Below are positions 1,202 through 59,546 of a stretch of 64,000 nt of DNA, in pieces. The stretch comes from Thermoanaerobaculia bacterium (GTDB lineage: Bacteria > Acidobacteriota > Thermoanaerobaculia > Multivoradales > Multivoraceae): the NCBI GenBank assembly GCA_022823665.1, contig JAJEHN010000008.1:193847-257846 (forward strand). The letters are read 5' to 3'. Position numbers and translations under genes: made by a program. The notes under the pieces were generated by a model that saw only the letters and a list, made by a program, of their open reading frames with translations, was not told where the DNA came from and made no database searches. Numbering within the stretch: the first letter of the stretch is position 1; every line of letters starts with the position of its first letter.

Positions 1202-1248
1202 ACTGGGTGCGCCGGCGCCCCCGCCGGCATCCGGCGCGCCAGCGCCGG
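1202..1248 (-). repeat. Three-hairpin repeat family, partial copy (hairpins 1 and 3)
   Basis: Read on the minus strand this has CCGGCGC-TGGC-GCGCCGG, then ATG, then GCCGGCG-GGGG-CGCCGGC and the conserved tail GCACCCAGTT. Both stems are 7 bp with 4-nt loops, as in the full 72-bp copies at 47623, 51349 and 56278, but the middle hairpin is absent. It lies just downstream of the sulfatase stop. Confidence 0.75.
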
Positions 1249-2451: not shown

Positions 2452-2541
2452 GGGCGACACCACCCAGTAGCACCACAAGATGGTCGCCGCTTCGCGGCGC
2501 GTACTCTTCAGAAGCTGGCGAGGGCGCCGGCGCACCCAGTG
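2442..2541 (+). repeat. Three-hairpin repeat family, degenerate double copy
   Basis: First part (2442-2470): GTGTCG, 7-nt loop, CGACAC followed by CACCCAGTAG, a decayed hairpin 3 plus tail. Second part: CGCCGC-TTC-GCGGCG (2485-2499, hairpin 2) and, after 14 nt, GCTGGCG-AGGG-CGCCGGC (2514-2531, hairpin 3 with one G-T wobble) followed by GCACCCAGTG (2532-2541). It lies between the toxin promoter and the stop of the ABC permease. Confidence 0.7.
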
Positions 2542-6110: not shown

Positions 6111-8231
6111 CTGACGACACCGGCAGCCGCCCCGCGACTCCCGCGCCGCCCGAAGTCCTGGCGGGCAAGGCTCCGCGAAGGAGAACGAGAGCTCGATCGC
6201 TCGGCGAGCACGCTCGACACCGCTACCGACATCCCGTTCCGGGAAGTCCTGCGCATCTTCTGGCGCGCGCTCTCCTACATGCGCCTGTTCAAGGCGCGCA
6301 TCGCCGCCAAGTTCTCCCTCGTGACCGCGGAGATGGTCTTCCGGCTGCTCGTCGCGCCCTGGCCGGGCAAGATCGTCGTCGATCACGTGATCCTGGGCAT
6401 GCCGATCGTGGACGCGGCCGGCTTCCCCTCCTACCTGTCTCCGTTCGTGCTGTTCCTGGCCGGCAAGGGCCCGGTGGAGATCATGCTCTGGGTCCTGCTG
6501 CTCGGCGTGTTCATGGTGACCGTGTTCGGGTTCACCACGAGCCGGGGCACGGCCAGGTCCGCGAGCGGGATGCCCACCGGAGCGTCCGCCGCCTCATCCG
6601 GCGGCGCCACCACTCTCCTGCAGCAGGGACACGGCACGCTGGCCCAGGGGCACGACACCGCCACCCGGACCGAGAACGAGGCCAACCGCGGCTCCGGCCT
6701 GATGGGGGGCATTCTCGGACTCCTCGACTTCCGGGTCCATCTGCGCCTGACCCAGTCCGTGAACCACCTGCTCCGGACGAAACTCGCCGGACGCATCAAG
6801 CGTCTGCCGATGACCACCCTGGACGACCAGCGGATCGGTGACAGCGTCTACCGCGTCCTCTACGACACGACGAGCGTCAGCCTCGTTCTCTACGAGGTCG
6901 GTCTCGAGTTCTACTCCCACTCTCTCGGCATCACGATCAGCGCGATGATGATGTACACGTACTTCGGCGACGCTCCCGAGGTCATCCTGCTGGCCGCTCT
7001 TTCGCTGCCGATCATGCTGGTGTTCGTCGTCCCCTTCGCGCGCATGGCCCGCCGCAGAAGCCAGGCAAGCCGCGCTTCGGGCGCCGCCACGACGTCGAAC
7101 ATCGAAGAGGGCATGAGCAACGTGCTCGCCGTACAGAGCCTCGGCGGCAACGAGCGGGAGGGCCAGCGGTTCAGGAAGGCCAGCGAGGAGTCCTTCCGGC
7201 GCTTCCGCATCGAGTCGCTGCTCAAGCTGACCTACCAGCAGTTCGGCAGCCTGGCGTTCCTGCTGGGCCAGGTCCTGTTCTTCGTCGTCATCTCCGGACG
7301 CGTGATCGACGGCACGTTCACCGCCGGCGACTACTTCGTCCTCAACTACTACTTCTTCGTCCTGAGCGCGACCTTCAGCGGAGCGGGCTTCATCTACCCG
7401 GTTCTGCAGAACAACATCGCCGGACTGCGCCGCGTGTTCTTCCTGATGGACCTGCCGGCGGAGAGAACGAGCGGAGGCGTCGAACTGCCCCGGATCACCG
7501 GTGGTGTCGACATGGAGGGGGTCGAGTTGACCTACCCGGACGGCCGCCAGGCACTGCGAAACATCGATCTCGAAGCGAGGATCGGCGAGATCGTCGCCTT
7601 CGTCGGACCGACCGGCGCCGGCAAGACGAGCCTCGCCTACATGGTGCCGGCGTTCCTTCAGCCGACGGAAGGCACGGTCTCGATCGATGGCGTCGACCTG
7701 AAGGACGTGTCGGTCGACAGCCTCCGCGAACAGGTCTCCTACGTCTTCCAGGAAACGCAACTCTTCTCCGACTCGATCCTCGAGAACATCCGCTACGGCA
7801 ACCGGGACGCGACGGAAGCGGAGGTCGAGCGTGTCGCCCGCGTCGCCGGAGCCCACGACTTCATCGCCGCCCTGCCCGACGGCTACCGGACGAACCTGGG
7901 CACCGTCACCAGCAAGCTGTCGGTGGGCCAAAAGCAGCGCATCGCCATTGCCCGCGGGCTACTGCGGGATGCCCGCATCCTGATCCTCGATGAGCCGACG
8001 TCCGCACTGGACCCGGAGACGGAGGCCTACCTCGTCGACGCCCTGCACGAAGCGGCGAAGGACAAGCTGGTCATCATCATCGCCCACCGCCTGTCGACGA
8101 TCGCCAACGCAGACCGGATCTGTTTCCTGGAGGACGGCGAGATCCGGGAACAGGGAACCCACGAGGAGCTGATGGCGGTGCCCGACGGGCGCTACCGGAG
8201 GTACGCCACGCTGCAGGCCGGGGCAGGCTGA
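6111..8231 (+). CDS. ABC exporter (type IV fold), probable CTG start
   Basis: The ORF track starts at ATG 6279, but the frame is open back to a stop at 6051. The region 6111-6278 encodes LDTATDIPFREVLRIFWRAL, which matches the N terminus of the paralogue at 11176-13272. No ATG, GTG or TTG exists in that stretch. CTG at 6111, preceded by TGGAG, gives 706 aa, close to the paralogue's 698. The protein has a six-helix membrane domain with a long Gly/Ser/Thr-rich loop after the first hairpin (TSRGTARSASG..), then a nucleotide-binding domain with Walker A GPTGAGKTS, signature LSVGQ, Walker B ILILDEPTSALD and H-loop IAHRLS. It overlaps the GH32 gene by 1 nt (TGATG). It likely works as a homodimer or with the 811-aa subunit; the substrate is unknown. 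Confidence 0.88.
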   Translation: MTTPAAAPRLPRRPKSWRARLREGERELDRSASTLDTATDIPFREVLRIFWRALSYMRLFKARIAAKFSLVTAEMVFRLLVAPWPGKIVVDHVILGMPIVDAAGFPSYLSPFVLFLAGKGPVEIMLWVLLLGVFMVTVFGFTTSRGTARSASGMPTGASAASSGGATTLLQQGHGTLAQGHDTATRTENEANRGSGLMGGILGLLDFRVHLRLTQSVNHLLRTKLAGRIKRLPMTTLDDQRIGDSVYRVLYDTTSVSLVLYEVGLEFYSHSLGITISAMMMYTYFGDAPEVILLAALSLPIMLVFVVPFARMARRRSQASRASGAATTSNIEEGMSNVLAVQSLGGNEREGQRFRKASEESFRRFRIESLLKLTYQQFGSLAFLLGQVLFFVVISGRVIDGTFTAGDYFVLNYYFFVLSATFSGAGFIYPVLQNNIAGLRRVFFLMDLPAERTSGGVELPRITGGVDMEGVELTYPDGRQALRNIDLEARIGEIVAFVGPTGAGKTSLAYMVPAFLQPTEGTVSIDGVDLKDVSVDSLREQVSYVFQETQLFSDSILENIRYGNRDATEAEVERVARVAGAHDFIAALPDGYRTNLGTVTSKLSVGQKQRIAIARGLLRDARILILDEPTSALDPETEAYLVDALHEAAKDKLVIIIAHRLSTIANADRICFLEDGEIREQGTHEELMAVPDGRYRRYATLQAGAG

Positions 8232-10207: not shown

Positions 10208-11225
10208 CGACATAGATCATGCCGCTTGCGTCACCGGCCGTAACCGTCCGTCTGTCGAGCGAGACCGGGCAGGAACGTGCGCGCTCTCTGCACTCGAAGC
10301 TGGCGATTGGCTGCCCGAGTTCGAGGTCCCACAGACGCAGCGTCTTGTCCGGGGAGGTGGAGACGGCGCACGATCCGTCCGGTGTCACAGTCGCGGCGTA
10401 GACCGGTTCGGTATGGCCTTCAAGCATGTGCAGGGCGCGGCCGGTCTGTAGATCCCACACCCCTAGCGTCCCATCCGCGGACGCGGAGACGGCGCGGCTG
10501 CAGTCGGGTGTCGCCGCGACCGCGTAGACTGGCCCCGTGTGACCGCCGAGAGCCCGCATGGAGCGCCCCGAGACCAGGTCCCATACCCGTAGCGTCCGGT
10601 CCTCGGATGCCGAGACTGCACGGGCGCCGTCCGGGACAACGGCTACGGCGTGGACGGCGTCGGTGTGGCCTTCGAGCGTCCGCTGACCGCGGCCGGAGTC
10701 GAGGTCCCACAGGCGAACGGTCCCGTCCCAGGACGCGGAGACGGCGCGGGTGCCGTTGGGAGTGAGGGCGAACGACTTGACGTCATCCGTGTGGCCTCGG
10801 AGTGTGTGCAGGGCGCGGCCCGAGTGGAGGTCCCAGACGCGCAGGGTGGCGTCCGCGGACGAGGAGACGGCACGCTTGCCGTCCGGCGTCACCGCAACGG
10901 CGTAGACCTCCGTTGCGTGCCCCTGAAGCACGTGCCGCGTGCGACCTGAAGCGAGATCCCACACGCGCAGGGTCGCGTCAAAGGAACCGGAAACGGCGCG
11001 GGTGCCGTCCGGAGTTACCGCGACGGACCAGACGCCGGCAGTGTGGCCTTCGAGGGTGTAGAGAGCACGCATGGACCGGAGGTCCCACACGCGGAGGGTG
11101 GTGTCGGCGGAGGTGGAGATGAGGCGTTTTCCGTCAGGCGTCAGCGCGAGGGCCTCGACCCTCCCGGTGTGCCCCTCAAGCCTGTGAGCCAGCCTGAAGC
11201 GACACATACTCGCGATAACGGCCAT
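10155..11225 (-). CDS. WD40 seven-repeat beta-propeller protein
   Basis: 356 aa made almost entirely of seven WD40 repeats. Each has GHTxxV, then LTPDGxRAVSxSxDxTLRVWDL, giving one complete seven-bladed propeller closed by a short C-terminal strand (SGMIYVVSADP). No signal peptide or extra catalytic domain is present, so it is probably a cytoplasmic scaffold. The repeats are very alike, which suggests recent expansion. The start lies inside the 3' end of the ABC exporter gene (50-nt overlap), so expression is coupled to the TonB-receptor/esterase/exporter operon. The partner is unknown; binding to the exporter is only a contextual guess. Confidence 0.88.
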   Translation of the reverse strand: MAVIASMCRFRLAHRLEGHTGRVEALALTPDGKRLISTSADTTLRVWDLRSMRALYTLEGHTAGVWSVAVTPDGTRAVSGSFDATLRVWDLASGRTRHVLQGHATEVYAVAVTPDGKRAVSSSADATLRVWDLHSGRALHTLRGHTDDVKSFALTPNGTRAVSASWDGTVRLWDLDSGRGQRTLEGHTDAVHAVAVVPDGARAVSASEDRTLRVWDLVSGRSMRALGGHTGPVYAVAATPDCSRAVSASADGTLGVWDLQTGRALHMLEGHTEPVYAATVTPDGSCAVSTSPDKTLRLWDLELGQPIASFECRERARSCPVSLDRRTVTAGDASGMIYVVSADPVRRDARSARARL

Positions 11226-13272
11226 CGGGGATCGCCATCAGTTCCTCGTGTGAGCCTGACTCCCGGACCTCGCCCTCCTCCAGGAAGTAGATGCGATTCG
11301 CGTGGGCGATGGTCGACAGGCGGTGGGCGATGATGATGACCAGCCTGTCCTTCGCCGCTTCGTGCAGGGCATCGACGAGGTAGGCCTCGGTCTCCGGGTC
11401 GAGCGCGGAGGTCGGTTCGTCGAGGATCAGAATCCGGGCATCGCGCAGCAGCCCGCGGGCGATCGCGATGCGTTGTTTCTGGCCCACAGACAGCTTGCTC
11501 GTCACGGTACCTAGATTCGTCCGGTATCCGTCGGGCAGCGCGGCGATGAAATCGTGGGCGCCCGCTATGCGGGCCGCACGCTCGACCTGCGCCTCGGTCG
11601 CGGCCGGGTTGCCGTAGCGGATGTTCTCGAGGATCGAGTCGGAGAAGAGCTGCGTCTCCTGGAAGACGTAAGAGACTTGCTCGCGGAGGCTCTCGACCGA
11701 CACGTCCTTGAGGTCGACGCCGTCGACCGACACCGTCCCCTCCGTCGCCTGCACGAAGGCCGGCACCAGGTAGGCGAGGCTCGTCTTGCCCGCGCCTGTG
11801 GGGCCGACGAAGGCGACGATCTCGCCGACGCGTGCTTCCAGGTCGACGTTCCTGAGTGCGCGGCGACCATCCGGGTAGACGAGCCCCACGCCCTTCATCT
11901 CGACGCCGCGCTTGATTCGATCCAGTTCGACGCCGTCCCGCGCCTTCTCCGCCGGCAGGTCCATCAGGAAGAACACGCGGCGCATCCCCGCGATGTCTCG
12001 CTGCCACTCCGTGTACATGAAGCCCCAGGCGCCAAACGTCGCACTTAGGACGAAGAAGTAGTACGTGAGAACGAAGTAGTCGCCAGCCGTGAACGTGCCG
12101 TCGATGACCCGACCCGCCATCACGATGAAGAACACGACCTGGCTCAGCAGCAGCGCCAGGCTGAACGCCTGCCGGTACGTGAGCACGAGGAACCACTCCC
12201 AACGGAAGCGCCTGAACGACTCCTCGCTGGCTTTCCTGAACCTCTCTCCTTCCCGCTCGTTCCCGCCGAGGCTCTGCACGGCGAGCACGTTGCTCATCCC
12301 CTCCTCGATGTTGCTCGTCGTGCTGGAGCCGGAAGCCCGGCTGGCCTGGCCCCGGCGCCGCGCCATGCGGGCGAAGGGGAGTTCGATGAGGAACACGATC
12401 GGAAGGGCCAGCATGCCCAGCACGATGACCTCGGGCGCGGCGCCGAAGTACGTGAACATGATGGACAGGGTGATCACGACTCCGAGCAACCCCGAGTAGA
12501 GCCCCAGCGCGATCCCGTGCAGCAGCATGTTGGCGCTCGTCGTGTCGTACAGGACGCGGTAGACGCTGTCGCCGATCCGCAGGTCGTCCAGGGTCGTCAT
12601 CGGCAGCGACCGGAGCTTCCGGGCTACCCGGGTTCGCAGGAAGTGGTTCATCGACTGCGAGAGCCGGAGGTGCACCCGGAAGTCGAGAAACCCCAGGATG
12701 CCCGCCATCAGGCCGGAGCCCATGTTCGCCAGGTTCTCCGTCTGCGTGGCGATGTCGTGGCCCTGGGCCAGGGTGCCGTGACCCTGCGGCGTGAGGGCCG
12801 TGGCGCCGCCGGAAGACCCCGCCGACGCCCCCGTCGGCGCTCCGCTGGGCGACCGGCCCGCGCCCCGGCTCGTGGTGAACCCGAAGACCGTCACCATGAA
12901 CACGCCGAGCAGGAACACCCAGAGCATCATCTCGACCGGACCCATGCCGTCCAGCAGCAGCACCGCCGGCGCCAGGTAGGCAGGGAAGCCGGACGCGTCC
13001 CCGATCGGCGCGCCCAGGATGATGTGGTCGACCACGACCTTGCCCGGCCAGGGCGCGACCATCAGCCGGAAGACCAGCTCCACCGTGATGAAGCCGAGCT
13101 TCGTCGCGATCCGCGCCTTGAACAGCCGGAAGGTCGAGACGACCCGCGCGAAGATGCGCAGGACCTCCCGGAACGGGATGTCCGTGCCCAGGTCGAGGAC
13201 GCTGGCGGCACGGTCGAGCTGCTTCTCGCCTTCCCGAAGCGACGGCCGCGACGCCCGGACCGCTTCGGCCAT
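11176..13272 (-). CDS. ABC exporter subunit, second of heterodimeric pair
   Basis: 698-aa membrane ABC protein, closely related along its whole length to the one at 6111-8231. It has six transmembrane helices with the same Gly/Ser/Thr-rich loop (TSRGAGRSPSGAPTG), Walker A GPTGAGKTS, signature LSVGQ, Walker B ILILDEPTSALD and H-loop IAHRLS. The ATG at 13272 overlaps the stop of the 811-aa subunit (TGATG); the track's start at 13275 is a TTG just before it. The pairing with the adjacent, different subunit points to a heterodimer. Such pairs include drug and lipid exporters and also siderophore importers of the IrtAB/YbtPQ type, which would fit the TonB receptor and Fes-like esterase upstream. 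Confidence 0.92.
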   Translation of the reverse strand: MAEAVRASRPSLREGEKQLDRAASVLDLGTDIPFREVLRIFARVVSTFRLFKARIATKLGFITVELVFRLMVAPWPGKVVVDHIILGAPIGDASGFPAYLAPAVLLLDGMGPVEMMLWVFLLGVFMVTVFGFTTSRGAGRSPSGAPTGASAGSSGGATALTPQGHGTLAQGHDIATQTENLANMGSGLMAGILGFLDFRVHLRLSQSMNHFLRTRVARKLRSLPMTTLDDLRIGDSVYRVLYDTTSANMLLHGIALGLYSGLLGVVITLSIMFTYFGAAPEVIVLGMLALPIVFLIELPFARMARRRGQASRASGSSTTSNIEEGMSNVLAVQSLGGNEREGERFRKASEESFRRFRWEWFLVLTYRQAFSLALLLSQVVFFIVMAGRVIDGTFTAGDYFVLTYYFFVLSATFGAWGFMYTEWQRDIAGMRRVFFLMDLPAEKARDGVELDRIKRGVEMKGVGLVYPDGRRALRNVDLEARVGEIVAFVGPTGAGKTSLAYLVPAFVQATEGTVSVDGVDLKDVSVESLREQVSYVFQETQLFSDSILENIRYGNPAATEAQVERAARIAGAHDFIAALPDGYRTNLGTVTSKLSVGQKQRIAIARGLLRDARILILDEPTSALDPETEAYLVDALHEAAKDRLVIIIAHRLSTIAHANRIYFLEEGEVRESGSHEELMAIPDGRYREYVSLQAGSQA

Positions 13273-39596: not shown

Positions 39597-39622
39597 CCAC
39601 ACAGGGTGCGCCGGCGCCCGCG
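39597..39622 (-). repeat. Three-hairpin repeat family, eroded 3' end
   Basis: On the minus strand GCGCCGGCGCACCCTGTGTGGGG: the second arm of hairpin 3 and the tail with one substitution. The first arm is lost. It lies 7 nt after the monooxygenase stop. The extended tail CACCC(A/T)GTGTGGGG is shared with the copies at 47685, 47719 and 53827. Confidence 0.5.
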
Positions 39623-47364: not shown

Positions 47365-47622
47365 CCGTGCGGTTCCAGCACGATAGGCGTGCAGCCGCCA
47401 CCTGCGTTGAGAGCACGGCACCCATACCGTCACCTGCCCAGATGCGAGTTGAGCCAACTACTGAGGAGTTTGAACCACAGGACGGCTCTACGCGCCGGTA
47501 GAATTGCCGGGGCTCTCGTGACGAACAGCGTCGCCGCTCCAGGACCGGAGCGAGCAACCGCCGCATGTGGACAAACAACCTGCGGTTGCTTGATGTTCCG
47601 GCGTTGGTCTGCAGGGAGCGGA
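47365..47622. other. Intergenic stretch without a recognised gene
   Basis: No supportable coding sequence between the LuxR promoter region and the repeat at 47623. The only structure seen is AGCAACCGC ... GCGGTTGCT (about 47551-47590), 9-bp arms around a 20-nt loop. ORF-track entries here are antisense or repeat-derived. Confidence 0.5.
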
Positions 47623-47694
47623 GCGAGGCTGACGCCTCGCGCGTTTCCTGGCCGCCTTCGGCGGCAGCCGGCGAGGGCGCCGGCGCACCCAGTG
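47623..47694 (+). repeat. Three-hairpin repeat, full 72-bp copy
   Basis: GCGAGGC-TGAC-GCCTCGC (47623-47640), GCGTTTCCTG linker, GCCGCC-TTC-GGCGGC (47651-47665), A, GCCGGCG-AGGG-CGCCGGC (47667-47684), GCACCCAGTG (47685-47694). A partial tail copy GCACCCAGTGTGGGG follows at 47719. It lies downstream of the sulfatase stop (47748, minus strand). Confidence 0.9.
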
Positions 47695-47718
47695 TGGGGA
47701 CTCGGTAGTGGCGGCGGC

Positions 47719-47734
47719 GCACCCAGTGTGGGGC
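47719..47734 (+). repeat. Three-hairpin repeat, tail fragment
   Basis: GCACCCAGTGTGGGGC repeats the end of the adjacent full copy 34 bp away, preceded by GGCGGC. Only the tail is conserved, so it is probably a truncated tandem copy. Confidence 0.6.
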
Positions 47735-47747
47735 CTCGCGCTGGAGG

Positions 47748-50825: not shown

Positions 50826-51446
50826 CTAGTCGGTATCCGGCCGATCGTCCAGGACGAAGCCGTCGCGGTTCGGCATCTCGACCTTGGGCAGGGTCTCCCG
50901 GTCGAGTACCGCGTCCCCGCCGACGATGCCTCCCAGGTGCAGCAGGTGGGCGACGACGGCGTAGATCTCGTCGTCGCTGAGCGAGCCCGGCGACTCGTAG
51001 GGCATGGAGCGGCGGATGTAGTCCCACAGGCTCGTGGCGTAGGGCCAGTAGCTCTCGACGGTCTTCCGTGGCCGCTCCGAGGTCAGGCTGTCGCGGCCCC
51101 CGACGAGCGCCGCGGCCTCGTCGCCTTCGGCGTTCCTGCCGTGGCAGGCCGCGCAGAACTGCTGGTAGACGGCCTTGCCCTCGCCCACGGTGCCGCGGCC
51201 TTCGGGCAGGCCCTTGCCGTCGGGGAACACGGTGTAACCGGCGGCGCCGAGTTCTTCGGCGGTTGCTTCGTGGCCGAGGCCGGTCGTCCCGGACTGGGCG
51301 GCGAGGGCAGCGGGCAGGACGAGGAAGAGGAGGGCGACGCGGAGTGGAGCGAGGCTGACGCCTCGCGCGTTTCGACGCCGCCTTGGGCGGCAGCGGGTCA
51401 GAGGACCCGCGCACCCAGTGAGAAGCGGGCCCCTAAGCCTCGGCAT
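50826..51446 (-). CDS. SoxD-like cytochrome c with repeat-encoded N terminus
   Basis: 206 aa. ATG 51446 overlaps the stop of the SoxC-like gene by 14 nt. Residues about 10-33 (TGCAGPLTRCRPRRRRNARGVS) are encoded by a full copy of the 72-bp repeat, then comes a hydrophobic signal (VALLFLVLPAALAAQ). No alternative ATG, GTG or TTG lies between the repeat and the signal core, so the repeat must be translated or a non-standard start used. The mature part has FPDGKGLPEGRGTVGEGK, haem site CAACH (98-102) and a likely axial Met in RSMPYESPG. It is the expected electron acceptor of the molybdenum protein. Confidence 0.88.
   Translation of the reverse strand: MPRLRGPLLTGCAGPLTRCRPRRRRNARGVSLAPLRVALLFLVLPAALAAQSGTTGLGHEATAEELGAAGYTVFPDGKGLPEGRGTVGEGKAVYQQFCAACHGRNAEGDEAAALVGGRDSLTSERPRKTVESYWPYATSLWDYIRRSMPYESPGSLSDDEIYAVVAHLLHLGGIVGGDAVLDRETLPKVEMPNRDGFVLDDRPDTD
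51349..51420 (+). repeat. Three-hairpin repeat, full 72-bp copy within cytochrome gene
   Basis: GCGAGGC-TGAC-GCCTCGC (51349-51366), GCCGCC-TTG-GGCGGC (51377-51391), A, GCGGGTC-AGAG-GACCCGC (51393-51410), GCACCCAGTG (51411-51420). Same length and spacing as 47623, but hairpin 3 has a completely re-paired stem. Confidence 0.92.
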
Positions 51447-53826: not shown

Positions 53827-53848
53827 CACTGGGTGCGCCGGCGCCCCC
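53827..53848 (-). repeat. Three-hairpin repeat, half hairpin 3 and tail
   Basis: On the minus strand CGCCGGC then GCACCCAGTG and TGGGG. The first arm of hairpin 3 is replaced by the 3' end of the quinoprotein gene, whose stop begins at 53849. It sits between two convergent genes. Confidence 0.6.
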
Positions 53849-55723
53849 CTACGGCAACCGGAACGCGACCAGCTCTTCCGTCGCCGCCACCGCCACGTAC
53901 TGCCGGCCGTCCGCCGCCACGTACGTCATCGGGTTCGCGTTGCCCTGGAGCGGCAACTCCAGCGACCACAGTTCCTCGCCGGTCTCCACGTCGAGCGCCC
54001 GGAAGCGGCGGTCGTCGGTCGCGGCGATGAAGGCGAGGCCCCCGGCGGTGACGATCGCCGAGGCGCGGCCCGGGCGGCCGGTCTCCCGCTTCTCCGCCGG
54101 CAGGCCCTCGGTCAGTCCGAGCGGTCGCCGCCAGGCGACTTGGCCGGTATCGGCATCGACCGCGGTCAGCGTTCCCCAGGGCGGTTTCTGGCACGGCCAG
54201 GACACGTCGCCGATGCGGACCGCGAAGGAGAACGGCCGGGCCACGCGCAGGACGTACGTCGCGGTATCGGCCTCCGTGTCCTCCTCGACCCAGCCCATCG
54301 TGCCGACGTCCTGGCTGAAAGCGAGCAGCCGGCGCGTCGCCGGATCGAAGGCGACGCCGCCCCAGTTCGGCCCGCCGGCCAGGCCCGGGAACAGCAGGGT
54401 GGCGCCGCGATCCTCGGCCCCACGGTGCACCCAGGGCGTGTACGGACCCGCGTTGTGAAGCGGTCCGGCGCTCTCGACCAGGGCCGCGCAGGCTTCCGCG
54501 TGCTCGGCGGTCGTGTCGTCGGCGGTCACCAGGTCCTCCGCCTCGTAGCCGACTCGCCCCAATGCCGGCGTCACACCCGGAATCGGCTGGGTCGGGTGGG
54601 TCCGCTCCCCGGGCACCGTGCTCGCCGGCATCGGCCGCTCCTCGACGTCGAAGACCGGCTCGCCGTTCTCCCGGTTCAGGACGAAGAGGTAGCCGGACTT
54701 CGTCGTCACGGCGAGGGCGTCGATCGTCTCGCCGCCCCGCTCGACCTCGAACAACACCGGCGGCGCCGGCGGATCGTGGTCCCAGATGTCGTGGTGGATG
54801 GTCTGGAAGTGCCAGCGGTACTCGCCGGTCCGGATGTCGACGGCGACCACGGCGTTCGCGAACAGGTTGGCGCCGTGCCGGTCGCCGCCGTAAGCGAAGG
54901 GAATCGGCGCGGCGAGTGGCAGGAACACGAGTTCCCGTTCCTCGTCGACCGTGAAGTAGAACGGCCACGCGTTCCCGCCCAGGCGGCCACGCCAGCTCTC
55001 GCCCTCCCAGGTCTCGTTGCCAACCTCGCCCGGCTGTGCCACGGAGTTGAACTCCCAGAGCTTCTCGCCGGTGACGGCGCTGAACGCCCGGGCGTTGCCG
55101 ATTCCGCCCGCCGTGCCGGGCGGCGTGTTCGCGCCGACGACGACGATGTCCTGCCAGACCAGGGGCACGGAGTTGTAGGGAACGCCGATGTCGACGATGC
55201 CGCCATCGCCGAACTCCGTCGCCGGCGTTCCTGTGGCCGCGTCGAGCGCGATGAGCCGCGCGCCGGCGCAGAACAGGATGCGGGGCGCCGCCCCGTCCGC
55301 TCCAACGCCCGGCCAGTACGAGACGCCGCGGCGCGAAGGGGCGCCGTCCGCCACCGTGTGGCGCCAGATCTCGGCCCCGGTCGCCGCGTCGAGCGCGACC
55401 ACCGAGCCGGCCGCCGGCAGGTAGAGCAGGCCGTCCACCGCGATGGGCGTCGCCTGCGAGCGCGCCGGCCGCCCGGGATCGCCAACGGCGCCCTCGCCGG
55501 CAGCCGAAGAGGCGAGTCCGTAGCTCCAGACCTGCTCCAGGTGGCCGACGTTGGCGGTCGTGATCTCGGCCAGCGGCGAGTACCCGGTTCCCGCGGCGTC
55601 GCCGCGGTACATCGGCCAGTCGGCGCGCGCCGGACCGTCCGAGGAACCGTCGCCGCAGCCCAGGACGGCAACCGCCGCGACCGTCGCCGCCAGAGGCCGT
55701 ATGATCCTCGCTCCAGACTTCAT
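53849..55723 (-). CDS. PQQ-dependent quinoprotein dehydrogenase, lipoprotein
   Basis: 624 aa from ATG 55723 (MKSGARIIRPLAATVAAVAVLGC) with lipobox VLGC; the ORF track extends 82 residues antisense into the cytochrome gene. PQQ beta-propeller of the glucose/quinate dehydrogenase type: WPMYRGDAAGTGYSPLAEITTANVGHLEQVW, repeated AxDAATGAEIWRH, VDIRTGEYRWHF, VDADTGQVAWRR, LDVETGEELWSL docking motifs, and HDIWDHDPPAPPVL characteristic of membrane-type glucose dehydrogenases without their membrane domain. It is divergent from a cytochrome c gene that may be its electron acceptor. Substrate undefined. Confidence 0.92.
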   Translation of the reverse strand: MKSGARIIRPLAATVAAVAVLGCGDGSSDGPARADWPMYRGDAAGTGYSPLAEITTANVGHLEQVWSYGLASSAAGEGAVGDPGRPARSQATPIAVDGLLYLPAAGSVVALDAATGAEIWRHTVADGAPSRRGVSYWPGVGADGAAPRILFCAGARLIALDAATGTPATEFGDGGIVDIGVPYNSVPLVWQDIVVVGANTPPGTAGGIGNARAFSAVTGEKLWEFNSVAQPGEVGNETWEGESWRGRLGGNAWPFYFTVDEERELVFLPLAAPIPFAYGGDRHGANLFANAVVAVDIRTGEYRWHFQTIHHDIWDHDPPAPPVLFEVERGGETIDALAVTTKSGYLFVLNRENGEPVFDVEERPMPASTVPGERTHPTQPIPGVTPALGRVGYEAEDLVTADDTTAEHAEACAALVESAGPLHNAGPYTPWVHRGAEDRGATLLFPGLAGGPNWGGVAFDPATRRLLAFSQDVGTMGWVEEDTEADTATYVLRVARPFSFAVRIGDVSWPCQKPPWGTLTAVDADTGQVAWRRPLGLTEGLPAEKRETGRPGRASAIVTAGGLAFIAATDDRRFRALDVETGEELWSLELPLQGNANPMTYVAADGRQYVAVAATEELVAFRLP

Positions 55724-55842
55724 CGCTGTAGTTCCGGGAGTGCCCGCCGGGAAGGGACTAGACTGTAGCCGAGACCCGTTGCCGGCTCTAGTCCAGACTG
55801 CTGAGGCGGCGCGGGTCTCTCGGCTTGAACGGAAGAGAAGGC

Positions 55843-56268
55843 ATGAACACACGTCCCCGATTGTCCCTGGCTGTGGCTCTGGCGCTGCTGATCGCCGGTA
55901 CAGCCGGCGCGCCGCCGGCGAGCGGTCAGGACGAGAAGCAGATCGACTACGCCAGGGACGTGCAGCCAATCCTCGAAGCGTTCTGCTACGAGTGCCACGG
56001 CGAGGACAGGTCCCTGCGCGAGGCGGATCTCCGTCTTGACATCAGGGAGCTGGCCTTCAAGGACCTCGGCGGCTTCCCCAACATCGCCCCCGGCGACCCG
56101 GACGACAGCGAGCTCTACATCCGCGTGAGCTCGGAGTTCCTGGAGATGCGGATGCCGCCGTACGAGGCCGGCACCCAGTTGACCGAAGAGCAGATCGAGA
56201 CGATCCGGCTGTGGATCCTCCAGGGAGCCGAGTGGCCGGAAGAGGCGGAAGGCGGGACGGATGGTTAG
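55843..56268 (+). CDS. Planctomycete-type cytochrome c
   Basis: 141 aa from ATG 55843 with GGAAG upstream. Signal peptide LSLAVALALLIAGTAGAPPASG. Single haem site CYECH (48-52) within YARDVQPILEAFCYECHGEDRSLREADLRLDIRE, the PSCyt1 pattern, and a distal MRMPPYEAGTQLTEEQIETIRLWI that supplies Met. It probably carries electrons for the adjacent quinoproteins: one is divergent upstream, the other (56361) follows after a repeat insertion. Confidence 0.9.
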   Translation: MNTRPRLSLAVALALLIAGTAGAPPASGQDEKQIDYARDVQPILEAFCYECHGEDRSLREADLRLDIRELAFKDLGGFPNIAPGDPDDSELYIRVSSEFLEMRMPPYEAGTQLTEEQIETIRLWILQGAEWPEEAEGGTDG

Positions 56269-56277
56269 TGTTGTGGT

Positions 56278-56349
56278 GCCGGCCTGACGGCCGGCGCGTT
56301 ACCTGGCCGCCTGCGGCGGCAGCGGGTCAGAAGACCCGCGCACCCAGTG
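56278..56349 (+). repeat. Three-hairpin repeat, full 72-bp copy
   Basis: GCCGGCC-TGAC-GGCCGGC (56278-56295), GCCGCC-TGC-GGCGGC (56306-56320), A, GCGGGTC-AGAA-GACCCGC (56322-56339), GCACCCAGTG (56340-56349). Hairpin 1 has four positions changed on one arm with matching changes on the other relative to 47623 and 51349. It lies between a cytochrome stop and the sugar dehydrogenase start, leaving only 11 nt to the ATG. Confidence 0.92.
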
Positions 56350-57650: not shown

Positions 57651-59546
57651 CTACGGCGTGTACCAGATCGGCGAGCTCCACGCCCGTTCCTGGTGGGTGG
57701 CGTGGAGATCCGGATTCGGCTCGATGCCGAGGCTGAGGGCGTCCCAGGTCGACCAGCGGCAGGTCGGATTCTCGAGCACGCGGACGTAGTAGAAGGAACG
57801 GGCGCCCGGGTCGAAGTCCGGGTCGGTCCAGGTGGTCCGGAGTTCGACGGCGCCCTTGTCCCGGCTGATCGAGCAGTCGTCCAGGTTGACCTGGGCGCCG
57901 TTGTCGTCGCAGCGGTGCGTTTCGGGGTCGGGCTCCAGGCCGTCGGAGCAGACGACGTCGTAGACCTGTTCCCGCGTCTCGCCGTCCTCCAGCCAGCCCT
58001 TGATGACCTGGGCCCGCTGCAGCCAGGCGTTCTCCGGATCGCGCAGGGCCCAGACGAGGAAGCTGGGTGCGGCGTTTCCAGATGCCGGCGAGGGCGCCGG
58101 CGCACCCAGTGGGCGACCCTCCGACGCACCGAGGTCGCCGCCCATCGGCACGCCGTGCTCGTAGGCCGCGGCGACCTGATCGGCGGCGCCGACGATCGCC
58201 TCGTCGAGCCCGAAGCCGCCGAAGAAGCGCACCCGGATGCGGGTGCCCGAGGTGGCGAACGACTCGCGTCGCTTCAGCGCGTCGAAGATCGCGGCGCGGG
58301 TGTTCCCGGCGGCCCACACTCCGGCCAGCCCGCCGGTGCCGTGGGTCGCCTGGCGAGGCGTCCAGAAGTTCTCCCAGCCGCCGTCCTCCTCGCGGTACGC
58401 GGAACCGCGTGCCTGGGGCGTGTTCGTCCTCGACGTGAAGCGGTTGTCCTCCTCGAACGAGCCGGCGGAGACGTGGCTGTCGCTCGAGCCGACCGCCCCG
58501 AGGGCATAGGGGTTCACGCCCAGGCGCTCCTCCATCTGGAGCCCGGTCAGCAGCGCGTCCCGCCAGTAGCCGCCCTTGAAGACCGAGATCGGGTCCGTGT
58601 TGTTCACCCGGTCCAGGTAGTACTGGACGATCTGGAAGTCGGCCCACTCGTCGTTCGGCGACAGCGACGGATGCACCTCCGAGGTGCCCTTCTGCTGGCT
58701 GATCTCGGCCACCGGTTCGTTCCGAATCCGCTTGGCCGCGAACTCCGCGTCGATCTCCGCACCCTTCCAGGTCTCCCGGTCGGGGAACGCCAGACCGTCG
58801 CTCTGGTTCATGTTGTGCGGCATCGCCAGCGCCTCGATCCCCTCCTCCCGCAGGCCGTCGAGCCAGTTCCAGAGGTCCTCGGGGTCGCCGTCGAGGGAAC
58901 TGAAGGGCAGCTCGGGCGCCTCGCTGCCGCGGAAGATGACGTTCCGGTGCACATGGCGGCCACCCACCCCCATCGTGTACTCGTAGCCGATCAGGGCGGT
59001 GAACCGACCCGGATCGTTGTGGCGCTCGGCGGCATCGATGACCCGTTGCCAGGCGCTTGCCCGCACTTCCGGGCCATTGATCGGGTCGCCTGCGCGACCC
59101 AGTTCCCGCAACCGGCTCAGCGCTCCCAGCCGCGCCCGGGCCCCGCGGCCCTCGCCGCTGAAGAGATCCTCTGTCAACGGGTGCCCGTAGGTGGGACTGT
59201 CCGGATCGATCAGCGCGGCCAGGGCGCCCAGGTACTCCGCGTGGTCCGTTACCGCGAGGAAGTCGAGCGGCGCGCCGGAGAGGCGGATCGACTCACCCGA
59301 CGGATGCGGGATCGCCTCTCCCCTCGCGTACCGGTAGGCGTCGTCCGGGGTCGTCCGCACCGTGCCCATGAAGGCGTCGTGCGAGTACATCGTGTGGATG
59401 TGCATGTCGCCGAACAGGGCGACCCGGTCGGCTGGGGCCGTGGACGCGGCGCCGGCGCCTCCGACGACGCGGGTGGCCTCGTCGCCCGCGGGCGCGCCGC
59501 AGGCGAGAGCGGTCAGGACGAGAGCGAGGAGACCGGGCCTGGTCAT
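57651..59546 (-). CDS. DUF3604 family lipoprotein with in-frame repeat insertion
   Basis: 631 aa, lipobox ALAC (Cys16). The DUF3604 domain has a PHP-like metal site GDMHIHTMYSHDAF (46-59) and VTDHAEYLG (about 99), YEYTMG, MPHNMNQSDG, and SSDSHVSAG. Family members are abundant in marine bacteria and of unknown activity, probably a metal-dependent hydrolase. Residues about 479-495 (LGAPAPSPASG region) are encoded by a copy of the window's repeat family that has kept the frame. Relatives usually pass straight from MGGDL to the PxFxVWALRDP strand there. The stop is back-to-back with that of the aldose dehydrogenase. Confidence 0.9.
   Translation of the reverse strand: MTRPGLLALVLTALACGAPAGDEATRVVGGAGAASTAPADRVALFGDMHIHTMYSHDAFMGTVRTTPDDAYRYARGEAIPHPSGESIRLSGAPLDFLAVTDHAEYLGALAALIDPDSPTYGHPLTEDLFSGEGRGARARLGALSRLRELGRAGDPINGPEVRASAWQRVIDAAERHNDPGRFTALIGYEYTMGVGGRHVHRNVIFRGSEAPELPFSSLDGDPEDLWNWLDGLREEGIEALAMPHNMNQSDGLAFPDRETWKGAEIDAEFAAKRIRNEPVAEISQQKGTSEVHPSLSPNDEWADFQIVQYYLDRVNNTDPISVFKGGYWRDALLTGLQMEERLGVNPYALGAVGSSDSHVSAGSFEEDNRFTSRTNTPQARGSAYREEDGGWENFWTPRQATHGTGGLAGVWAAGNTRAAIFDALKRRESFATSGTRIRVRFFGGFGLDEAIVGAADQVAAAYEHGVPMGGDLGASEGRPLGAPAPSPASGNAAPSFLVWALRDPENAWLQRAQVIKGWLEDGETREQVYDVVCSDGLEPDPETHRCDDNGAQVNLDDCSISRDKGAVELRTTWTDPDFDPGARSFYYVRVLENPTCRWSTWDALSLGIEPNPDLHATHQERAWSSPIWYTP
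58063..58111 (+). repeat. Three-hairpin repeat family, partial copy inside DUF3604 gene
   Basis: GCCGGCG-AGGG-CGCCGGC (58084-58101) followed by GCACCCAGTG, preceded by GGCGTTTCCAGAT. An outer 8-bp pair CTGGGTGC (58063-58070) / GCACCCAG (58102-58109) would enclose the whole segment. The segment keeps the reading frame open on the minus strand. Confidence 0.8.

Follow-up and report, generated by a model that had tools for sequence, protein, structure and literature searches.

A REP family adjoining RAYT transposase genes in Acidobacteriota and its probable in-frame copy within a DUF3604 gene

REPs are already known from within genes. In 2013 intragenic REPs of the GTAG/CGTC type were reported in the ORFs of several species, to which they add tens of residues, with shorter homologues found elsewhere and with flexible linkers or loops suggested as the sites (PMC3733652). 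The same study mentions the acidobacterium Koribacter, with TIR-type repeats (PMC3733652). As to mobilisation, TnpA-REP of E. coli cleaves at a CT adjoining the REP, and in a related system the tag was shown to guide the choice of the site (PMC8266576). Until now, annotation has been the main basis for inferring intragenic REPs; the present work shows one site that is filled in some close orthologues and empty in others.

The window, i.e., the whole stretch of 64,000 nucleotides that was analysed (G000:C11:193847-257846), is part of a 4.5-Mb genome in 38 contigs with 67% GC. It contains on the minus strand a DUF3604 (PF12228) gene (57651-59546), which is an intact ORF of 631 aa carrying the insert described below. 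The protein matches PF12228 over its full length (profile positions 3-591 of 591, 682 bits, E 9e-205), and its N-terminus resembles a lipoprotein signal (LTALAC). A PDB sequence search with the protein gave no match and a fold search with its structural model gave nothing at E <0.001, the most plausible fold match being the PHP domain of 7ug9 (E 0.017, prob 0.97). Near orthologues sit in MAGs labelled Acidobacteria, Thermoanaerobaculia, Holophagales and 'Candidatus Multivorans thiocomprendens', which we take to be mainly sponge-associated; a search of the literature on DUF3604 and 'Candidatus Multivorans' found nothing useful. Elsewhere in the window, positions 6161-8221 and 11189-13249 form a large inverted pair of about 2 kb with 78-81% complementarity, which consists of divergent paralogous genes in opposite orientation, and between these paralogues lies a seven-fold array of a 126-bp repeat (10321-11159).

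A sequence-only reading of the window had placed an in-frame repeat copy inside the DUF3604 gene at 58063-58111, and its sequence, frame and coordinates all proved correct. The insert has the gene-strand sequence CACTGGGTGC GCCGGCG CCCT CGCCGGC ATCTGGAAACGCC and is translated as LGAPAPSPASGN within the intact ORF. It is composed of the head or tag ACTGGGTGC (58102-58110, minus strand), near-invariant across the repeat family, of the hairpin GCCGGCG-CCCT-CGCCGGC with a 7-bp stem and a 4-nt loop (58084-58101, minus strand), and of a trailing ATCTGGAAACGCC 3' of the hairpin (58071-58083, minus strand), which is either an element remnant or linker. The whole linker, residues 473-492 (GASEGRPLGAPAPSPASGNA; 58071-58130, minus strand), encompasses 20 residues versus 5-6 in empty orthologues, and the orthologue alignment revealed that GASEGRP, the seven residues ahead of LGAP, is also part of the altered linker. 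The gain, initially put at about 16 residues, was corrected to a net 14-15 codons relative to the empty orthologues. An outer 8-bp inverted pair CTGGGTGC/GCACCCAG, said to bracket the insert, is literally present, but its arm GCACCCAG (58063-58070, minus strand) is host coding sequence, namely codons of the conserved APSF motif that are complementary to the head and lie outside the element. In empty orthologues this site reads GCGCCGAG, GCCCCCAG and similar, in the other filled orthologues GCACCGAG or GCGCCCAG. The outer arm is not an element end: on aligning the orthologues, the idea that the pair marks the ends of the element was abandoned, and the arm is a coincidental match of host sequence. 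The junctions of the insert are not clean because the surrounding linker has diverged.

In the window, the core GCGCCGGCGCACCCAGT has 8 near-copies versus 1.3 expected, with 0 of 100 shuffles attaining 8, and the G000 genome contains 47 exact core copies versus 0 for the reversed control, with a head count of 49. A 16-mer of the core is present in all 21 of 21 genus genomes (3-245 copies each) and gave one match among 39 genomes of other genera. In a hairpin survey of 583 kb, comprising loci partly picked for containing the repeat, 130 of 188 CTGGGTGC heads were followed by a hairpin of at least 6 bp, with 0/16 for the reversed word and 1/186 on the complementary strand. Five main stems covary on both sides (GCCGGCG, GCGGGTC, GCGGACC, GCCGGCC and GCCGACG), and in 93 copies anchored on the stem the nine bases ACTGGGTGC show a conservation of 96-99%, which falls just upstream. 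This strand-specific tagged hairpin classifies the repeat as a REP, and since its tag is ACTGGGTGC and not the tetranucleotide GTAG, it falls outside the GTAG superfamily. As is characteristic of REPs and REPINs, it is in G000 a short palindrome of high copy number that lies mostly between genes.

Within the window, copies outside any scored coding frame lie at 1202-1247 (plus strand; head and two hairpins) and 2495-2540 (minus strand). A copy with one core mismatch is found at 39601-39617 (plus strand) and a full-length REP with three hairpins and a second head 34 bp on at 47615-47738 (minus strand). Two copies on the minus strand, 51341-51420 and 56270-56349, have the GCGGGTC stem, the stem type flanking the RAYT gene, and a truncated REP of head and half stem (53828-53846, plus strand) adjoins the stop codon of the gene at 53849-55969.

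One Y1_Tnp gene was detected in the G000 genome (L045:1195-1797, 201 aa). Its product matches Y1_Tnp above the Pfam cut-off, scores 79.4 bits (E 2e-22) against the NCBIfam model REP_Tyr_transpos (REP-associated tyrosine transposase), just below the cut-off of 80, and has the HUH-type motif PNHVHVL. On either side of the gene lies a 147-bp REPIN, an inverted REP doublet that has the same head and that begins and ends with CTCTGGGTGCGCGGGTCTTCTGACCCGC in inverted orientation; the two have folding energies of -119 and -115 kcal/mol. The stem differs, being GCGGGTC in the REPs around this RAYT gene and GCCGGCG in the DUF3604 copy. The RAYT loci of G006, G008 and G014 are likewise near CTGGGTGC hairpins, each of its own stem type, and at those of G009 and G013 no such hairpins were found nearby within the stretch examined, so that the same head adjoins RAYT genes in 4 of 6 loci inspected. 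In G014 the RAYT gene is present with 31 repeat copies. The CT dinucleotide forms part of the conserved head ACTGGGTGC. Mobilisation of the REPs by RAYT would be consistent with this arrangement, and the insert in DUF3604 is very probably an intragenic REP whose REP/REPIN family is specific to the genus and associated with a RAYT (HUH tyrosine) transposase. Points against this explanation are the tag, which is not GTAG, the usual guide of RAYT, the unclean junctions of the DUF3604 insert, and the lack of a detected RAYT gene in G005 and G018 despite 160-180 exact copies in each.

The genus contains 13 orthologues of the DUF3604 protein with 91-94% identity. The long linker is present in seven proteins including the window copy (G000, G001, G002, G005, G010, G013 and G016), in all of which the hairpin stem is perfect, and a short linker of 5-6 residues, versus 20, in seven orthologues (G003, G006, G008, G012, G014, G017 and G020), e.g., MGGDL-EGGDGG-APSFL versus MGGDL-GASEGRPLGAPAPSPASGNA-APSFL. 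All 16 of 16 more distant homologues from other subfamilies, genera and phyla are without the insert, and one of these, L060, has a partly longer linker of unrelated sequence. The homologue comparison proposed along with the original reading therefore came out in its favour: seven close orthologues and 16 distant homologues lack the added residues, and no homologue was found that has this length without the repeat. The insert is derived, because these close and distant relatives do not have the residues, and an assembly error is unlikely, as it is present in seven assemblies. In G013, the orthologue (L058 / L115) has a frameshift at about residue 517, shortly past the insert region, which is either a recent pseudogene or an assembly error.

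An AlphaFold2 model of the DUF3604 protein built on 51 homologues has a mean pLDDT of 87 and a pTM of 0.89. The residue blocks 471-480 and 481-490 reach 65 and 52, respectively, with neighbours above 90, and secondary structure is absent in the insert region until the strand 495-501. As anticipated, the insert was thus modelled as a loop (pLDDT 52-65) between strands above 90. The model agrees with a probable location of the insert in a flexible surface loop, low pLDDT being also expected for any insert missing from most of the alignment.

On the gene tree, calculated with the insert excluded, the filled alleles are not one clade (AU p 1e-7); a single-clade origin of the insert was rejected on this whole-gene tree and weakly on local trees, in which the flanks of the site fail to group all seven filled alleles (AU p 0.017-0.044). 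The empty allele of G003 and the filled allele of G013 are 99.7% identical 300-600 nt upstream and 87% identical over the final 150 nt, a part in which G013 is closer to G000 (95%). As read from these identities, alleles have been exchanged by recombination close to the insert site, and the breakpoint near the site weakens any tree-based inference on the origin of the insert. As the filled alleles do not form one clade, one insertion with recombination is not proven over a variant of the same explanation in which REPs were inserted twice, independently, at this position, once in the G000/G001/G013/G016 group and once in the G002/G005/G010 group. This variant is possible, if doubtful. The failure of the local flanks to unite the seven filled alleles speaks for it, as do differences between the groups in the last linker residues and in tandem units; position, frame and the trailing ATCTGGAAAC are, however, identical in G000 and G002, and the breakpoint seen between G003 and G013 would give the same pattern from one event.

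The tandem units are found in G005 and G010, in which a 36-bp (12-codon) unit, PGAATDAPGTRT-like and containing the head-like ACCGGGTGCG, was added once and twice, respectively, in frame. Other tandem REP units have lengths of 34 bp (window 47683-47727) and 39 bp (L099). It is conceivable, although we consider it rather unlikely, that the REPs of this genus are a recurrent source of in-frame peptide, with intragenic copies staying in the REP population of the genome, in keeping with their perfect hairpin stems and with a loop type that is the prevailing one of their genome, and amplifying in codon-multiples; if true, a mobile repeat would both seed and remodel protein loops, as with the 36-bp units of DUF3604 in two strains.

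A copy was counted as intragenic if a coding signal was present in the same frame on both sides, by which copies at gene ends may be missed. By this measure, only two of the 47 exact copies of G000 lie in genes, and 400 kb of G010/G005 contain one intragenic copy among 51, so genes are avoided. Other copies are crossed by long ORFs (L008, L024 and others) and were rejected as intragenic, as these ORFs have no same-frame coding signal on both sides. The second in-gene REP in G000 is in a LamG-domain protein (PF13385; L031:464-2299), whose initial ~80 codons probably consist of repeat sequence that is not translated. The protein reads TADFAPDAGGGAGAPSFEPPATF in G000, G003 and G013, a gain of exactly 13 codons, and the empty sites in G001, G002, G012, G014 and G017 are clean (TTDFDPPATF). 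This insert measures 39 bp, of which 36 nt are a REP on the opposite strand that starts exactly at ACTGGG; the remainder is a TTC repeat. A third case, with 29 additional codons in G001, G005 and G010, was found in a protein that was named VOC-type from sequence motifs; here the REP is longer, with further hairpins, and ten other genomes have clean, LLGLSPAADDGALLRCAYEDF-like empty sites, while GCC borders the insert at either end.

The first loop base differs between genomes. T-type copies are few in G000 (1/49), G013 (12/57) and G003 (11/61) and many in G001 (52/76), G002 (101/111), G005 (138/178), G010 (205/245) and G016 (90/117), these fractions being lower bounds because the T-type pattern is longer. 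The in-gene copies in DUF3604, LamG and VOC always have the majority loop type of their own genome, which fits either their origin from REPs of that same genome or a subsequent conversion. For DUF3604 alone, both C-type alleles are in both C-type genomes, which has a chance of 1 in 21 and is suggestive only.

At the insertion junctions, direct repeats of 3-4 nt are found, TTC/TTCG for LamG (L031 near 1660-1700) and GCC for VOC (L224-L226). These are unexpected for an IS200-like route, count against the RAYT step and would suit an alternative to RAYT-driven REPs, namely MITEs mobilised by a DDE transposase that duplicates 3 bp of its target. We regard this as quite improbable, since the two junction pairs are the only cases and short enough that they may be chance matches, single copies do not end in inverted repeats, and the same head is found beside RAYT genes in four of six loci. 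The likeness to Rickettsia palindromic elements (RPEs) noted in the sequence-only reading was upheld for the effect, an in-frame insertion, and not for the element, which is a RAYT-tied REP that is rare in genes. That these repeats are an RPE-like system adapted to move within genes and to contribute peptide is suggested by in-frame insertion into three unrelated genes and by stop-poor frames; it is nevertheless very improbable, as the stop-freedom of the REP frames is only modestly above that of same-composition shuffles and as the intragenic fractions given above contrast with the first reported RPEs, of which nearly half lie in ORFs (PMC10969869). Hardly tenable is an ancestral long linker that was deleted in other lineages and became REP-like by drift: filled alleles are scattered among empty ones on the gene tree and the linker is Ala/Pro/Gly-rich, like many GC-rich linkers, yet the linker is short in each of the 16 more distant homologues and the insert has the exact head and the perfect stem of a 47-copy family, the stem being perfect in 7/7 filled genomes.

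According to the favoured explanation, an intragenic REP, a single REP unit would have been copied into the loop between L472 and A493 of DUF3604 in some lineages of the genus. RAYT would perform this move as E. coli TnpA-REP does, cutting a single strand close to the CT in the head. The frame would have stayed open, with a gain of about 15 residues in a tolerant loop, because the net gain is a multiple of three and the REP is stop-free in this frame. The added peptide would be neutral, and homologous recombination would then shuffle filled and empty alleles between strains.

Like the REP/REPIN-RAYT systems of E. coli, Pseudomonas and Stenotrophomonas, the family described here consists of a 5'-tagged short hairpin in many, mostly intergenic copies, with inverted doublets and with repeats flanking a Y1 HUH transposase gene (PMC2817692, PMC3116915, PMC8266576). 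It differs from them in its tag, ACTGGGTGC instead of GTAG, in its host, Acidobacteriota, and in that the stem varies by locus and genome while the head is fixed; a REP family with an unusual tag is thereby documented in uncultured Acidobacteriota. With RPEs it shares the in-frame insertion into unrelated genes, but RPEs are reported to be ~150 bp long, with nearly half of them in ORFs (PMC10969869), whereas the elements here have 36-90 bp, are rare in ORFs and are tied to RAYT. New are the lineage, the non-GTAG tag, the pairs of presence and absence, the recombination around the site and the in-frame tandem amplification. Three loci (DUF3604, LamG and VOC) show both filled and empty states, and these pairs, including the two further loci with cleaner junctions, make the cost and fate of REPs in genes directly measurable. 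In contrast to the earlier intragenic cases (PMC3733652), several close orthologues of both states are available here for one and the same site, with exact codon counts, and in two strains the insert expanded in tandem and in frame by 12-codon units.
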